Shown: positions 7,173-47,600 of the stretch, one piece after another
Numbering within the stretch: the first letter of the stretch is position 1
Layout: each line of letters starts with the position of its first letter
Origin: Brachyspira alvinipulli ATCC 51933
GTDB taxonomy: Bacteria; Spirochaetota; Brachyspiria; Brachyspirales; Brachyspiraceae
Length of the DNA stretch: 64,000 nt
Direction: 5' to 3'
Assembly (NCBI RefSeq): GCF_000518245.1
Contig: NZ_KI912406.1
Location: forward strand, 60,681 to 124,680
Made by a program: the position numbers and the translations under genes
Notes under the pieces: model-generated
Told to the model about the DNA's origin: nothing
Seen by the model: only the letters and a program-made list of their open reading frames with translations
The model's database searches: none

Positions 7173-10100
7173 ATGGCCAATAACAATCAGATAGATAATA
7201 AAGTATATCCAGAACGAGGGGTAGAGTTCGCAAAAAAGTATAGGATAGAAAATGGACGTGTAAACTTTTCACGTTCTGCTTCCGTAATAGAACCTCCTGA
7301 TCTCCTCGCAATACAGAAAGAGTCATACGAGAGTTTCCTTCAAAAGGATGTACCTGAAAATAAAAGAAAAAATGAAGGTTTGCAGGAAGTATTAACTTCA
7401 ATATTCCCTATAGTAGCTTCTAATGAAAAGATGCAGATAGAATTTATTTCTTACTCTATAGGCGAGCCTAAAATTACAGAAAAAGAGGCTAGAAGAAGAG
7501 ATAAAACTTATGCTTACCCTTTTAAAATAAAAGTACAATTAACCGTAAGAGACCCTGAAAGAATTATAGAGCAAGAAATTTTTGTTGGTGAAATACCAGC
7601 TATGACAGACAGAGGTACATTCATTATTAATGGTGCTGAGCGTGTTGTAGTTTCTCAGATTCATAGATCGCCTGGTGTTGTTTTTAATAGAAGCGACAGA
7701 GATGCAATGTTCGTGGCTAAAATAATCCCGGACAGAGGTACTTGGCTTGAATTTGAGCTTGACACTAAAAAAGACATAATGTATGTTAGAATAGACAGAA
7801 AGAAAAAACTTCCTGTTACTGTATTTTTGAGAGCTATTGGAATAATAACCAATGAAGAAATTTTAAAATTATTTTATGAAGTAGACAATATATCATTAGA
7901 AAAACTTTCAGATGATGAGAAAAAACAAGCATTAATAGGTAAACATTCATATTCTACAGTATTTGATACAGAAAACCCATATGAAATCATATTAAATCCT
8001 GGTGAGCTTATCAATACTAACTTAGCTGAAAGACTTTTAATGAGCGGAATTAAAGAAGTTTCTGTATTAAATATGGATAAGATTAAAGGCAGTTCTACCA
8101 TAATTAATACTTTAGATAAAGATACAACAAAAAATCAAGAAGAAGCATGTACAAAAATTTATAATGTTATAAGACCAGGAGAACCTGCTTTAATAGAAAA
8201 CGTTATAAGAACATGTAATGATTTAGTGTTCGATCCTAAATTATATGCTTTAGGAGATGTAGGACGTTATAAAATTAATAAAAGATTGAACTTCCCTGAA
8301 AGCGAACAGGATAAAGTTTTAAGACATAAAGACATAATAGAAACTATTAGATTTTTAATAAAAGTTTTCATAAACGAAGAACAATTGGATGATATTGACC
8401 ATTTAGGAAATAGACGTGTAAGAAGTGTTGGTGAATTATTAGCTATACAAATAAAACAAGGTTTTGCGAGAATGGAGCGTATAGCTAAAGAAAGAATGCA
8501 AATGCAGGATATGGAGGCAGTAACTCCTCAATCTCTTGTAAGCATAAAACTTATACAGGCAGTAATAAAAGAGTTTTACGGTACAAGCCAATTATCTCAG
8601 TTCATGGATCAGAACAACCCATTATCAGAGATTACACATAAAAGAAGATTGAATGCTTTAGGTCCTGGAGGTCTTACAAGAGACAGAGCAGGTTTTGAAG
8701 TAAGAGACGTACACCATACTCACTATGGTAAAATATGTCCTATTGAAACTCCTGAAGGTCCAAACATCGGACTTATAGTATCTCTTGCAACTTATGCCAA
8801 GATTAATAAGCATGGTTTCTTAGAGACTCCTTATAGAAAAGTTGTTGATGGAAAAGTAACTGATGAAATAGAATACTTAACGGCACATGATGAAGAAAGA
8901 TATCATATTGCTGATGCTAATGCTCCTCTAAATGAAGACGGATCATTTAAAGAAAATCTTATATCCACAAGATATAGAAGTGAATTCCCATATTCTTCAC
9001 CAGATCAGGTGCAGTATATGGACGTTTCTCCTCAGCAGATAGTATCTCTTTCAAGTTCATTAATACCATTCTTAGAGCATGACGACGCTAACAGGGCTTT
9101 GATGGGTTCAAACATGCAACGTCAAAGTGTTCCTTTATTATTCCCAGAAGCTCCTATAGTAGGTACAGGAGTTGAGGCAAAAATATGCCAGCCTGGAACA
9201 GGTATAGCTTTACATGCTAAAAGAGCTGGAAAAGTTATCAAAGTTGTACATGATGAGATAGTAGTTAAGCCTACTAAGCAAAATAGCGATGATGATTTTG
9301 ATGTTTATGAATTAGTAAAATATCAGAGAACTAACCAAGATACTAACTTTCATCAAAGACCAGTTGTTAATGTTGGAGATATGGTTAAAGCAGGCGGATT
9401 ATTAGCTGACGGACCTGCTACAGATCATGGAGAATTGGCATTAGGAAGAAATGTACTTGCTGCTTTCATGATTTTTGAAGGATATAACTTCGAGGACGCT
9501 ATTCTTTTAAGTAAAAGATTAGTACAGGAAGATGTATTTACTTCTATACATATCGAAGAGTTTTCTGTTGAAGCACGTGAAACAAAATTAGATAAAGAAA
9601 ATATTACTAGAGATATACCTAATGTATCAGATGCTGCTTTCAAAAACTTAGATGAAAGAGGCATCGTAAGAATAGGTGCTAAAGTAAAAGCAGGAGATAT
9701 ATTAGTTGGTAAAGTAACTCCTAAGGGAGAAACAGAAATTACACCAGAATACAGACTTCTTCACTCAATATTTGGTGAAAAAGCTAGAGATGTAAAAGAT
9801 ACTTCTTTAAGAGTGCCTCATGGTAAAGATGGTACTGTTATAGATGTAAGAGTATACAGCAGAGAAAACGGCGATGAATTAAAGCCTGGAGTAGAGGAAG
9901 TAGTAAAAGTATTCTTGGCTAAGAAGCGTATAATACAAGAAGGCGATAAAATGGCAGGACGTCACGGTAACAAAGGGGTTGTTGCTAGAATCATGCCTAT
10001 TGAAGATATGCCTTATTTAGAAGACGGTACTCCTATAGATATATGTTTGAATCCTCTTGGTGTACCTTCACGTATGAATATAGGTCAGGTTATTGAGATG

Positions 10101-10694
10101 TTATTAGGATGGTCTGGTCATAAAATGGGACTTAAATATGCTTGTCCTGTATTTGAAGGTCCTAAAGAAGAGGCATTAAGAGAAGCATTTGAATTCAGCG
10201 GTATGAATGTTAATGGAAAGGTAAGACTTTATGACGGAAGAACAGGAGAGCCATTCAAAAATGATGTTGCTGTAGGATACATGTACATGCTTAAACTTAA
10301 TCACTTGGTTGAAGATAAAGTACATGCTAGAAGTACAGGACCTTACTCACTTGTTACTCAGCAGCCTTTGGGAGGTAAATCTCAGTTCGGAGGTCAGAGA
10401 TTAGGAGAGATGGAAGTTTGGGCATTAGAGGCTTATGGAGCTGCTAATATGCTTCAGGAGTTCTTAACTGTTAAATCAGATGATATGACAGGACGTGCTA
10501 GAATATATGAATCTATTGTTAAAGGCGATGTTATATCTTCTCCAGGTATACCGGAAAGCTTTAACGTATTGGTTCAAGAGCTTAGAGGTTTGGGTCTTAA
10601 TATTACTATTCATGATGAAGATGGCAATCAGCTTGCTTCTACTGAAAAAGAACTTAGACAAAAGACTAAAAAACAAACCAAGATTTTTAAATAA
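7173..10694 (+). CDS. rpoB: DNA-directed RNA polymerase subunit beta
   Basis: 1173 residues from ATG at 7173. An in-frame TTG at 7155 is possible, but the GGAG at 7159-7162 fits the ATG and lies inside the longer version. Diagnostic blocks: the rifampicin-region sequence SQLSQFMDQNNPLSEITHKR with LGPGGLTRDRAGFEVRDVH, then GYNFEDAILLS and the C-terminal GGKSQFGGQRLGEMEVWALE. It is the catalytic core subunit that pairs with beta prime encoded 19 bases downstream. Confidence 0.98.
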   Translation: MANNNQIDNKVYPERGVEFAKKYRIENGRVNFSRSASVIEPPDLLAIQKESYESFLQKDVPENKRKNEGLQEVLTSIFPIVASNEKMQIEFISYSIGEPKITEKEARRRDKTYAYPFKIKVQLTVRDPERIIEQEIFVGEIPAMTDRGTFIINGAERVVVSQIHRSPGVVFNRSDRDAMFVAKIIPDRGTWLEFELDTKKDIMYVRIDRKKKLPVTVFLRAIGIITNEEILKLFYEVDNISLEKLSDDEKKQALIGKHSYSTVFDTENPYEIILNPGELINTNLAERLLMSGIKEVSVLNMDKIKGSSTIINTLDKDTTKNQEEACTKIYNVIRPGEPALIENVIRTCNDLVFDPKLYALGDVGRYKINKRLNFPESEQDKVLRHKDIIETIRFLIKVFINEEQLDDIDHLGNRRVRSVGELLAIQIKQGFARMERIAKERMQMQDMEAVTPQSLVSIKLIQAVIKEFYGTSQLSQFMDQNNPLSEITHKRRLNALGPGGLTRDRAGFEVRDVHHTHYGKICPIETPEGPNIGLIVSLATYAKINKHGFLETPYRKVVDGKVTDEIEYLTAHDEERYHIADANAPLNEDGSFKENLISTRYRSEFPYSSPDQVQYMDVSPQQIVSLSSSLIPFLEHDDANRALMGSNMQRQSVPLLFPEAPIVGTGVEAKICQPGTGIALHAKRAGKVIKVVHDEIVVKPTKQNSDDDFDVYELVKYQRTNQDTNFHQRPVVNVGDMVKAGGLLADGPATDHGELALGRNVLAAFMIFEGYNFEDAILLSKRLVQEDVFTSIHIEEFSVEARETKLDKENITRDIPNVSDAAFKNLDERGIVRIGAKVKAGDILVGKVTPKGETEITPEYRLLHSIFGEKARDVKDTSLRVPHGKDGTVIDVRVYSRENGDELKPGVEEVVKVFLAKKRIIQEGDKMAGRHGNKGVVARIMPIEDMPYLEDGTPIDICLNPLGVPSRMNIGQVIEMLLGWSGHKMGLKYACPVFEGPKEEALREAFEFSGMNVNGKVRLYDGRTGEPFKNDVAVGYMYMLKLNHLVEDKVHARSTGPYSLVTQQPLGGKSQFGGQRLGEMEVWALEAYGAANMLQEFLTVKSDDMTGRARIYESIVKGDVISSPGIPESFNVLVQELRGLGLNITIHDEDGNQLASTEKELRQKTKKQTKIFK

Positions 10695-36695: not shown

Positions 36696-37961
36696 TTATA
36701 CTCCGAAATCATTAGAATATATTTCTACTTTTGATATATTTGACATATATTTAAAAAAGTATCTTATAATATCTGTTTCTATTACAGTTCTATTAAATGT
36801 TATTGAAAGTTTATCATAAAAACTGCATACGCCGCAATTTAACGGGCTATTTATTGTTGGGTATACTACGGCTTCAAAATGACTGATATAATCTTTCATC
36901 TCTTCAGGCAATGATATATTAGCAAAATTTGAAATGGTCATTGTTTTTATTTTATCTTCAAACAATTCAAATGCTAAATTAACCACAAAATTTTTTATAA
37001 ATAATGGTATAAATTTAGCAAATATATTATTTTCTAATTTTGTATTTTCGTATATAAAATTTTCTAAATAATCCTTTGATATTTTATTTTTCATTTCGTT
37101 TTTTACAGTTTCAATTATATTTTCAAATTCAAGTTCTTTGTCAGTATTAATTGCTATATTTGTAACTCCGAAGAAATTTTTTAATGATATAGATGGGAAT
37201 ATTTTTCTTAAGTTTACAGGTATGCATATAACTATATTCTTTCCATCATGTCTGTTTTTTATTCTAGTTTCATATATTGAATATGCAAGAACTGATAATA
37301 TATAAGCAGTTATTGTGACATTATATTTTTTGCTCTCTTTTTTAATTTTTTCCAAGCTCAATATTCCATGTATAACGTTATCTCCGTATATTTTTAATGG
37401 TTTTCCTCTAACTAAATAAACATTTTTTATTTTTGCTTCTTTTTTTGATTGTTTTTTTTCCTTTGTATGAATTTCAAAACTGTCATCATAATCTGCTATA
37501 GTATGTATATTATCTTTAAATATGTCTTCATTTATATCATTAATTGTTTTACCTGATAGTGTAAAATAATGATATAATAAAGATTTTAAAAAACTTATTA
37601 AAGATGTGGCATCAGCTAAGGAGTGTGCTATTTCAACAGAGATTCTATATTTATAAAATACAACTCTTATTAAATGTCCGTTATTTAATTTACTATTTAT
37701 ATTATAGCAAGGATAATATTTTTCTTCCTGCACTATTAATTTTCTATTATTTTCTTCAAAGTAGTGCCAAAATAATCCCTTTTTTATTGATAAGGCAAGA
37801 GTTGGAAATCTTTTTATTGTTATGTCTAATGCTTTTTGTAATGTTTCTCTATTTACTTCTTCTATTAATACGGCAGATACTCTAAATATAGGCATATTTT
37901 TTTTATTTTTTATAGATACAAAAAGTTTAGCAGCATTATCAAGTTTATATAATTGTTTCAT
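36696..37961 (-). CDS. Alcohol acetyltransferase-like condensation-fold protein
   Basis: 421 residues. Opening KLDNAAKLFVSIKNKKNMP and KALDITIKRFPTLALSIKKG match the alcohol-acetyltransferase branch of the condensation-domain/CoA-acyltransferase superfamily. The catalytic His motif is EIAHSLADATSL (HxxxD). A likely role is acyl transfer from CoA to an alcohol or lipid head group; the acceptor is unknown. Its end is joined to the zinc-ribbon membrane gene, which suggests the two proteins act together at the membrane. Confidence 0.8.
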   Translation of the reverse strand: MKQLYKLDNAAKLFVSIKNKKNMPIFRVSAVLIEEVNRETLQKALDITIKRFPTLALSIKKGLFWHYFEENNRKLIVQEEKYYPCYNINSKLNNGHLIRVVFYKYRISVEIAHSLADATSLISFLKSLLYHYFTLSGKTINDINEDIFKDNIHTIADYDDSFEIHTKEKKQSKKEAKIKNVYLVRGKPLKIYGDNVIHGILSLEKIKKESKKYNVTITAYILSVLAYSIYETRIKNRHDGKNIVICIPVNLRKIFPSISLKNFFGVTNIAINTDKELEFENIIETVKNEMKNKISKDYLENFIYENTKLENNIFAKFIPLFIKNFVVNLAFELFEDKIKTMTISNFANISLPEEMKDYISHFEAVVYPTINSPLNCGVCSFYDKLSITFNRTVIETDIIRYFFKYMSNISKVEIYSNDFGV

Positions 37962-38044
37962 ATTATTTATTTTAATTAATAAAAATTATTTTGCAATGAT
38001 AAAATCATTAAAATAATATTTATTAATTAAAATTTTCAATCTAA

Positions 38045-38140
38045 TAAACACTTGGGCGGGTGTGCTGTTTCTTTATTAGTCAGTAAAAATAATTTATATT
38101 AGAGTAAAAAATAAAGCAATAAAGAATAAAGGGCGGGGTA
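38045..38140 (-). repeat. Single arm of the intergenic G/C-rich repeat family
   Basis: Read on the minus strand it gives CCCCGCCCTTTATTCTTTAT and then CACCCGCCCAAGTGTTTATT, matching the left arms at 45526-45625 and 46348-46445 with the same spacing. It lies in the 233-base gap between the acyltransferase gene and the broken restriction gene. Confidence 0.75.
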
Positions 38141-38194
38141 TGTAGCAGAATTCAAAATACTCTAATCACTTGAAAAATATGCAAATTTAGCAAT

Positions 38195-45295: not shown

Positions 45296-45324
45296 AGTTT
45301 TAATGTCCTATTATTGATTGTTAT

Positions 45325-45410
45325 GCTTGTCGACGAAGTCCACCTACGTGTAGGTGTTGACTACAATAAGCTAGTGAGTAATCTCACTAGATGGCTACGA
45401 CTCGCTTTTT
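45325..45410. ncRNA. Candidate structured RNA or folded repeat (three-way junction-like)
   Basis: Outer pairing GTCG (45329-45332) with CGAC (45398-45401), extended by GC/GC. Arm 1: AGTCCACCTA (45337-45346) with TAGGTG..GACT (45351-45362), two-base bulge. Arm 2: CTAGTGAG (45371-45378) with CTCACTAG (45383-45390), TAAT loop. On the plus strand five T follow directly. It is far more G/C-rich than its surroundings. It could be a small RNA, a leader element of the SGNH gene (minus strand), or a repeat. I know no family that matches. Confidence 0.5.
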
Positions 45411-45525
45411 ATTATTCTTAATAATATTAATAAAAATATATTTGTCAATATTAATTATTAATAAAGATATTTTTATATACTTCTATATTAAAAATTATTT
45501 TCTATTTAGCTTTAATTACATACCT

Positions 45526-45833
45526 CGCCCTTTATTCTTTATTGTTTTATTTTGAAATTATAATTTTTATTATATTTATAACTTGATTAGAAATTAAAGC
45601 ACCCACCCAAGTTTTTATTAGATTTAGAATTTTATTCAACGCACGGTGAGCTGAATTTGATATATAATAAAAATTGGAATTTATAATTAATTTATATTGA
45701 TAATATTATTCTTCGTGCGGAGTTTTAATTTAAAATTTAAATAAAATTGGGGTGGGCTTTATAATTACAGTAAAGGCTTAAAAGAAAAATAGTAAAAATG
45801 ACAAATTGAAGTTATAAATTAAAAAGGGTGGGC
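45526..45833. repeat. Symmetric inverted intergenic element, about 308 bp
   Basis: From the left: CGCCC (45526), CACCCACCC (45600-45608), ACGCACGG (45639-45646). From the right, inverted: GGGTGGGC (45826-45833), GGGGTGGGC (45749-45757), CGTGCGG (45714-45720). The distances from each end to the inner marks agree within about two bases (74/76 and 113/113). Between marks the sequence is AT-rich. No ORF is inside. It fills most of the 570-base gap between the SGNH and TPR genes. Confidence 0.75.
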
Positions 45834-46347: not shown

Positions 46348-46543
46348 CCCGCCCTTTATTCTTTATTGTTTAATTTAGGATTTTTGATTTTTATTCTCTT
46401 TATAACTTTATCAGAAATTATAGCCCCGCCCAAGTTTTTATTAGATTTATAATTTTATTCAACGCACGGTAAACTAAATTTTATATATAATAAAAATTAA
46501 CATTCAAAATCAGTATATATTTATAACACAGTTTTGCGTGCGT
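46348..46543. repeat. Half element: left arm plus core of the intergenic repeat family
   Basis: CCCGCCCTTTATTCTTTATT (from 46348), CCCCGCCC (46424-46431) followed by AAGTTTTTATTAGATTTA, then ATTCAACGCACGG (to 46469) and GCGTGCGT (46536-46543). The first 120 bases align with 45526-45646 nearly base by base. The right arm is missing; hisA regulatory sequence follows instead. Confidence 0.75.
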
Positions 46544-46646
46544 TTTGTACGTTAAAAAACTTAGAAATTTAAATTATGATAATTTTTTATTTTAAATAAT
46601 ATGTTATAATTATTTAACTTATTAATATAAAATTAGAGGATTAAAA

Positions 46647-47360
46647 ATGTATATACTTCCAGCAATAGATTTAAAAAATGGAGAAGTTGTAAGACTTGTT
46701 GAAGGAGACTATGATAATAAGACTACTTATTTTAGAGACCCTATTGAAGCATTAGATTTTTTTATTGAAAGCGGAAGTAAATATCTGCATGTTGTTGATT
46801 TGGATGGGGCAAGCGACGGAGAAACTATTAATTTTAAGACAATAGAGAAAATCATAAAAAAATCTGATTTATTTGTTGAAGTAGGCGGCGGTATAAGAAA
46901 TGAAGAGACTATAAATAGGTATTTGGATATAGGTGTAAAAAGAACAATACTTGGAACAGCTGCTGTTGAAAATATTGATTTTACTGAGAATATGATTAAT
47001 AAATATAAGGATCATATAGCTGTATCCATTGATTCAAGATATAGAATGATAGCAGTTAAAGGCTGGAAAGAGATTAATAAACAAGACTCAGTTGAATTTT
47101 GCATTAAACTTGATGAAATGGGTATCGATACAATTATATATACTGATATATCAAAAGATGGAAAATTATCCGGTACTAATTTAGAAATATATAAAGAATT
47201 AAGAGAAAAAGTTTCATGCAATATTATAGCTTCAGGCGGTGTTACTTTTGAAGATGAAATTATAAAATTGAGAGATATGAATATTAACGGAACTATAGTA
47301 GGAAAAGCTATATATGAAAACAAACTAGATTTAAAAAAGATTATTAAACTTGTTTCGTAA
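46647..47360 (+). CDS. hisA: 1-(5-phosphoribosyl)-5-[(5-phosphoribosylamino)methylideneamino]imidazole-4-carboxamide isomerase
   Basis: 237-residue TIM barrel. The catalytic aspartates are in PAIDLKNGEVVRL (D8) and IIYTDISKDGKLSG, and the phosphate loops VGGGIRNE and IIASGGVTF are present. It catalyses the fourth step of histidine synthesis. No other his gene lies next to it in this window. AGAGG precedes ATG. Confidence 0.92.
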   Translation: MYILPAIDLKNGEVVRLVEGDYDNKTTYFRDPIEALDFFIESGSKYLHVVDLDGASDGETINFKTIEKIIKKSDLFVEVGGGIRNEETINRYLDIGVKRTILGTAAVENIDFTENMINKYKDHIAVSIDSRYRMIAVKGWKEINKQDSVEFCIKLDEMGIDTIIYTDISKDGKLSGTNLEIYKELREKVSCNIIASGGVTFEDEIIKLRDMNINGTIVGKAIYENKLDLKKIIKLVS

Positions 47361-47423
47361 TATTATATATATTTTTTATTTTGTTAATATAAGTAAATAC
47401 TGGTACATATAAAAAATTAGTTA

Positions 47424-47502
47424 ACGCACGGTTAGATTAATTTGATATCTATTGAAATTAAAATTAACAATCAAATTATTTTTTGCTTTGTTCTGCGTGC
47501 GT
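47424..47502. repeat. Core copy of the ACGCACGG...GCGTGCGT repeat
   Basis: ACGCACGG (47424-47431) and GCGTGCGT (47495-47502) form inverted ends around about 63 AT-rich bases that resemble the interiors at 45647-45713 and 46470-46535. The outer G/C-rich arms are absent. Confidence 0.65.
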
Positions 47503-47555
47503 TTGGTAAATTCAAAATTCAAATAAATATAGAGTGTTGAATTAGAATAAATACA

Positions 47556-47600
47556 AAAATATAAAAGTCCCATTAAAAAATAATGAAGCTTTTATATTTT
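47556..47600 (-). terminator. Hairpin downstream of the decayed lipoprotein gene
   Basis: AAAATATAAAAG (47556-47567) pairs with CTTTTATATTTT (47589-47600), with an inner CATT/AATG pair. Position suits the minus-strand gene remnant at 47638-47994. Confidence 0.5.

Follow-up and report, generated by a model that had tools for sequence, protein, structure and literature searches.

Most Brachyspira genomes carry a dispersed intergenic repeat family of about 50 to 150 copies per genome, in which short G/C-rich marks stand at nearly invariant distances in several combinations of two modules. Selection acts on the marks and their spacing, and far less on the sequence of the spacers. The repeat works most like the BIMEs (REP mosaics) of enterobacteria and is a new form within the known class of bacterial interspersed mosaic repeats. 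The reading that we prefer, with about even confidence, is that of a BIME-like array of duplex sites for a putative DNA-binding complex, which would have its role in the terminus half of the chromosome.

Architecture of the repeat

In the window, by which we mean the whole 64-kb stretch of Brachyspira alvinipulli DNA that was analysed, the motif CCCRCCC occurs seven times against 0.70 expected, a number reached in 0 of 100 shuffles, and CGCACGG occurs three times against 0.10 expected; this excess excludes chance for the marks in the window. All ten matches fall inside copies of one element (Table 1), which the original prediction had described as a symmetric 308-bp unit with G/C-rich marks in mirror-image order. 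The marks sit where they had been placed and the element is real, but 308 bp is just one of several module combinations. The order of the marks is indeed mirrored, although not as an exact mirror image, module B being asymmetric (ACGCACGGT on the left and CTGCGTGCGGT on the right in the consensus). Beyond the CGCACG/CGTGCG core, M3 and M3' do not mirror each other, so that the element has a direction.

Table 1 Copies of the repeat in the window and the marks that they contain
Feature	Position	Strand	Remarks
Full ABA' copy, all six marks	45523..45833	+	Top family match, 232.5 bits, model 2-324
Outer mark M1, CCTCGCCC	45523..45530	+	Family consensus CCCCGCCC
Mark M2, CCCACCC	45602..45608	+	78 bp from M1, centre to centre
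Mark M3, ACGCACGG	45639..45646	+	Left end of module B
Mark M3', CGTGCGG	45714..45720	+	Right end of module B; 74 bp from M3
Mark M2', GGGTGGG	45750..45756	+	36 bp from M3'
Outer mark M1', GGGTGGG	45826..45832	+	76 bp from M2'
Second copy, A-B form	46348..46629	+	Right arm degenerate; between TPR gene and hisA
Marks of the second copy	M1 46348..46354; M2 46425..46431; M3 46463..46468; M3' 46537..46542	+	
Third copy, degenerate	47344..47584	+	Around module B mark CGCACGG (47425..47431); downstream of hisA
Fourth copy	37822..38144	-	Module A clear, remainder degenerate
Module A of the fourth copy, CCCGCCC twice	38131..38137; 38054..38060	-	77 bp apart

Module A consists of two like-oriented C-rich marks 77 bp apart (CCCCGCCC-77-CCCGCCC), and module B is ACGCACG-74-CGTGCG; the two combine as ABA', AB, BA' or BA'|AB, where A' is inverted A. 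In the aligned copies, the consensus left marks are CCCCGCCC (M1), CCCGCCC (M2) and ACGCACGGT (M3), and the consensus right marks are CTGCGTGCGGT (M3'), GGGCGGG or GGGTGGG (M2') and GGGCGGGG (M1'). By class, 62 ABA', 62 A-B, 60 B-A' and 27 A-alone copies were counted, together with a few others. Two forms are symmetric, ABA' and BA'|AB, the latter centred on a palindromic linker, and halves of each occur. Neighbouring copies often abut at 30-37 bp, with 38 such pairs, mostly BA'|AB, in genome G013. The distances between mark centres are 77, 37, 74, 36 and 78 bp (A joining B at 37/36 bp) and 42-43 bp across the linker, where A' joins A. For each of these six intervals, 88-100% of the distances lie at most 2 bp from the median, and the spacing is thus near-invariant, even though the median identity between paralogues is 0.60. 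Outside the outer marks, weak conservation continues for about 20 bases. The modular structure and the second symmetric form, like the terminus gradient described below, had been missed in the original prediction, whose observation was right but understated.

In L068, the copy at about 10083-10336, on the downstream side of the hisA-side gene, has lost the interior of module B. Slippage could account for this, as GGTGA stands as a short direct repeat next to M3 and next to M3'.

Distribution of the family

With a 336-base query, 60 matches were obtained in the genome from which the window comes, and nearly all genomes of the genus had matches as well. The sequence-only profile R1 gave 135 matches at about 78 distinct places in the window's own genome, the matches outnumbering the places because the element is nearly symmetric and is matched on both strands, and at least 150 matches in G013; a refined profile run on the extracted stretches yielded 78 and 150 distinct copies, respectively. 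The original prediction was to be given up if no further copies turned up in this or related genomes, and many intergenic ones are present in both. Altogether, 22 of 25 Brachyspira genomes carry the repeat. Profile R1 found no copy in the genomes G006, G010 and G021, and the family is therefore not essential.

An exact 19-base motif, sought across GTDB in 84,980 species, each represented by one genome, was detected in 62 stretches, all of them from Brachyspira, and a search of plasmid and phage collections returned no copy of the repeat. As far as tested, the family is specific to the genus, and it is best explained as a vertically inherited, genus-wide intergenic mosaic. Our literature search, which covered open-access papers, found none on this repeat, and four Brachyspira genome papers make no mention of it (PMC2650404, PMC2897892, PMC3163572, PMC3532143); apparently, it has been undescribed until now.

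Conservation of the marks and avoidance of pairing

The claim that the marks rather than the spacers are selected is borne out at two orthologous positions in the leuS region. There, the G/C-majority columns of the marks show mean pairwise identities of 0.967 and 0.936, against 0.671 and 0.532 for G/C columns of the spacers and 0.731 and 0.579 for G/C columns of the flanks. Intergenic DNA of the genus is strongly AT-biased, with 20.4% G+C in B. intermedia (PMC3163572), and the G/C columns of the marks are kept despite this bias, which indicates that the marks are held at individual loci.

A further question is whether the two arms of a copy are kept complementary to each other, compensatory changes having been proposed as a check for an RNA. 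The variable middle base is A or G in M1/M2 and C or T in M2'/M1', and no covariation was found between opposed marks (M1 with M1', p = 1.0, 62 copies; M2 with M2', p = 0.08, 99 copies). A-C mismatches between opposed marks occur at chance frequency, and marks on the same arm do correlate. Moreover, in G013 and G000 and in both symmetric forms, the left arm fits its own right arm worse than the right arms of other copies. With M2 included in the ABA' arms, the own-arm alignment score had a z value of -2.9 in G013 and -2.4 in G000; across the BA'|AB linker, the values were -2.7 and -2.4, respectively. In most comparisons, z lay at about -2 to -3, and duplex energies were concordant. Thus, the copies are symmetric in their marks yet avoid true palindromes.

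Placement in gaps and along the chromosome

All 163 copy clusters lie clear of ORFs of at least 120 aa. Convergent gaps hold 53 of 161 clusters and make up 26 of the 260 gaps without a copy (p = 1.4e-8). A regulatory role had been linked to copies found solely in convergent or divergent gaps; convergent gaps are over-represented, but copies occur outside them as well.

In three of four complete genomes, the copies concentrate opposite dnaA, the terminus being defined here as the antipode of dnaA rather than by dif or skew. Counted by fifths from origin to terminus, there are 10/6/20/45/69 copies in G013, 1/0/7/12/33 in G016 and 2/8/12/40/36 in G019, with Kolmogorov-Smirnov p values, for sites collapsed to a spacing of >10 kb, of 5e-6, 2e-7 and 7e-6, respectively. 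In the fourth complete genome, G007, the 18 best copies showed no gradient towards the terminus. Intergenic DNA makes up 12.9% of the origin half and 17.0% of the terminus half of G013, a background value obtained from twenty 20-kb stretches picked between known copies, and this difference is too small to explain the gradient. No polarity with respect to the replication strand was found in G013, the GGG strand being leading in 53 cases and lagging in 47.

Of the two core XerC/D-like tyrosine recombinase genes of G013, the one at C2:2974320 is placed very close to the antipode of dnaA, where the chromosome is richest in copies.

A candidate binding array

Conserved sites on a strict ruler, indifferent spacers and the avoidance of pairing together favour a DNA-binding complex, and of the three functions that had been offered, that of a protein-binding site fits best. 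The marks are candidate duplex DNA sites, and we infer that a protein or complex would contact several of them simultaneously along B-DNA of a set length, which would suit a wrapping or bridging protein. In helical turns, the 74 bp from M3 to M3' correspond to about 7, the 37 bp from M2 to M3 to about 3.5 and the 147 bp from M2 to M2' to about 14, although such phasing is arithmetic and not evidence of binding. The extragenic placement, the convergent bias and the terminus gradient favour a role in the architecture or topology of the terminus half of the chromosome rather than in the control of single genes; candidate versions would be the loading of a nucleoid protein or of a topoisomerase-type enzyme, as BIMEs do for gyrase. 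Several points count against this reading: G007 lacks the gradient and the terminus was set as the antipode of dnaA; any tolerated insertion would also show terminus clustering and promoter avoidance; three Brachyspira genomes are without the family; and the strong folding described below is a point for RNA.

A more specific proposal is a dedicated terminus-organising system of Brachyspira, in which a lineage-specific complex would read three kinds of G/C-rich marks on a 36/74/77-bp ruler, wrap or bridge the 300-bp arrays and structure the terminus half, having evolved separately from MatP/matS and gyrase-binding BIMEs. In this full form, we regard the proposal as speculative and rather improbable. 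Little is known about the organisation of spirochaete chromosomes, and a G/C-rich, ruler-spaced, terminus-clustered array offers a handle on it in an anciently AT-rich genus, as well as a DNA bait for pulling out the candidate binding protein.

Comparison with known repeat systems

BIMEs are intergenic mosaics of hundreds of base pairs, composed of short G/C-rich units in alternating orientation with two linker types; they are strictly extragenic and favour 3' ends and convergent gaps. The Brachyspira repeat is likewise an extragenic mosaic of alternating orientation (ABA', BA'|AB). It differs in that its marks are 6-8 bp long and stand on a 36-78 bp ruler, whereas REP units measure 35-40 bp and form hairpins, in that its arms avoid pairing with their partners, in the lack of a Y1/RAYT gene and in its strong terminus gradient. 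With REPIN-RAYT systems it shares long-lived intragenomic populations of paired, inverted, short intergenic repeats, but no RAYT was found in eight Brachyspira genomes, there are three mark types, and copies are held at orthologous sites with mark-specific conservation. Since both a RAYT and hairpin units kept by compensatory change are lacking, we do not place the repeat in the REP/REPIN family.

The BOX elements of Streptococcus pneumoniae are similarly modular and intergenic with variably combined modules, whereas the combinations in Brachyspira are symmetric (ABA' or BA'|AB) and keep a strict ruler, with no conserved RNA fold supported. Repeated short DNA sites enriched at the terminus are also known from matS/MatP and KOPS, a likeness that holds for three of the four complete Brachyspira genomes and not for G007; the Brachyspira sites are grouped in 300-bp arrays instead of standing as single motifs, and unlike the FtsK-orienting KOPS, they have no replication strand polarity. 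Terminal inverted repeats are shared with MITEs, but target-site duplications are not.

Mobility

Could the family be, as had been considered, a non-autonomous mobile element? Flanking target duplications, named beforehand as a check for mobility, were not detectable: in 35 isolated ABA' copies, no offset or length gave a convincing excess of matching flanks. Y1/RAYT (PF01797) was found in none of eight Brachyspira genomes, with control matches in E. coli and others. There were no near-identical dispersed paralogues in G013 and G000, the median identity to the best paralogue being 0.72 and 0.68, respectively, and the closest pairs were local. These results speak against an element that is mobile at present; old target duplications may have decayed since, and an old mobile origin of the repeat is possible. 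In the leuS region, the presence or absence of copies is coupled to cassettes and does not take the form of clean insertions.

The main rival to the binding-site array is an ancient REPIN- or MITE-like non-autonomous family that spread before most Brachyspira species radiated and is immobile now, the marks being former transposase-binding sites and the different forms products of insertion and deletion. Taken as a whole, we consider this reading possible, if on the unlikely side. It accords with the dispersed, strictly intergenic occurrence of the copies and with their inverted-repeat design, in which the inverted terminal marks, together with about 20 bases of weak conservation outside M1, correspond to what is expected of MITE terminal inverted repeats; tandem joining, the absence of the family from three congeners and its accumulation in the plastic terminus half can be added. 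It is opposed by the lack of target duplications, near-identical paralogues, Y1/RAYT and plasmid or phage copies, and by the fact that orthologous marks are kept while G/C elsewhere in the copy decays, where a dead insertion predicts otherwise.

Gene cassettes and recombination in the leuS region

The leuS region provides a case for a recombination or cassette-exchange site, at which a recombinase would read the marks and genes would be inserted, excised or inverted between copies. Among the loci of 14 species, 0 of 34 gaps holding a copy are conserved adjacencies, compared with 46 of 60 gaps of >100 bp without a copy (p = 1e-14), a test in which related species are counted as independent and the adjacency threshold is five, with g7-EL-leuS (four species) just below it. 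In L061 (6022-6692), L064 and L069, two copies of the same orientation upstream of leuS enclose a toxin-antitoxin pair that was identified by eye as hicBA-like; where hicBA is absent, a single copy stands. Moreover, L070 has the leuS-EL-TPR segment in the opposite orientation to L071, flanked by outer copies that are inverted. However, a wider comparison of G013 with G000 showed no such effect (conserved gaps, 7/47 with a copy and 13/65 without, p = 0.62), and the leuS result is thus either local or something that goes with plastic regions in general. Among the tyrosine recombinases, none follows the distribution of the family, as the two core ones occur in genomes without it as well, and the events seen at leuS are also explained by ordinary homologous recombination of the repeats. 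Dedicated exchange therefore appears unlikely to us. The copies do border cassettes that are gained, lost or inverted (hicBA, the SGNH hydrolase gene and the TPR gene at leuS), which explains part of the gene-order plasticity of Brachyspira; acting as such borders is probably a side effect.

An orthologous copy was also seen in several species (L074, L075 and L076), where it follows a gene that lies downstream of two large ones; at 1173 and 1400 aa, these have sizes that would fit rpoB and rpoC.

Transcription control and RNA

Control of the flanking genes, with the repeat as operator, antiterminator or bidirectional terminator, would suit the strictly intergenic position and the enrichment in convergent gaps. 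We nevertheless consider it very unlikely, given that the flanking genes are functionally unrelated, that both 5' and 3' ends face copies, that the leuS copy lies beyond a terminator-like sequence of hairpin and T-run, and that such control would not predict terminus clustering.

The least probable reading, to which we give hardly any credence, is the long folded RNA (about 310 nt) that had been suggested, with the G/C marks as helix clamps. On either strand, the minimum folding energy is indeed below that of shuffles, the mean z being -5.1 for the forward and -4.1 for the reverse strand, but the G/C marks alone can account for such low energies. The forward strand folds more stably in 28 of 36 copies. 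Despite such stable single-sequence folds, an RNA was dropped as the main reading on the lack of covariation, the chance-level mismatches in opposed marks and the avoidance of own-arm pairing; the RNAalifold covariation term is about zero (+0.17), Rfam gave nothing at the gathering score and nothing convincing below it, and half copies (A-B, A alone) occur as often as full copies and would be unable to form the helices.

Other repeats near the copies

Further repeats were observed in the same regions. At 45310-45415 of the window, just upstream of the SGNH hydrolase gene, lies another repeat of about 105 bp (GCTTGTCGACGAAGTCC...CTAGTGAGTAATCTCACTAG...CGACTCGC), with related copies in at least nine other Brachyspira stretches examined. 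More G/C-rich repeats are found at L071:9862-10011 and L014:1761-1930, each with several related copies across the stretches examined, and the one in L071 belongs to an insertion by which a copy downstream of leuS has been split.
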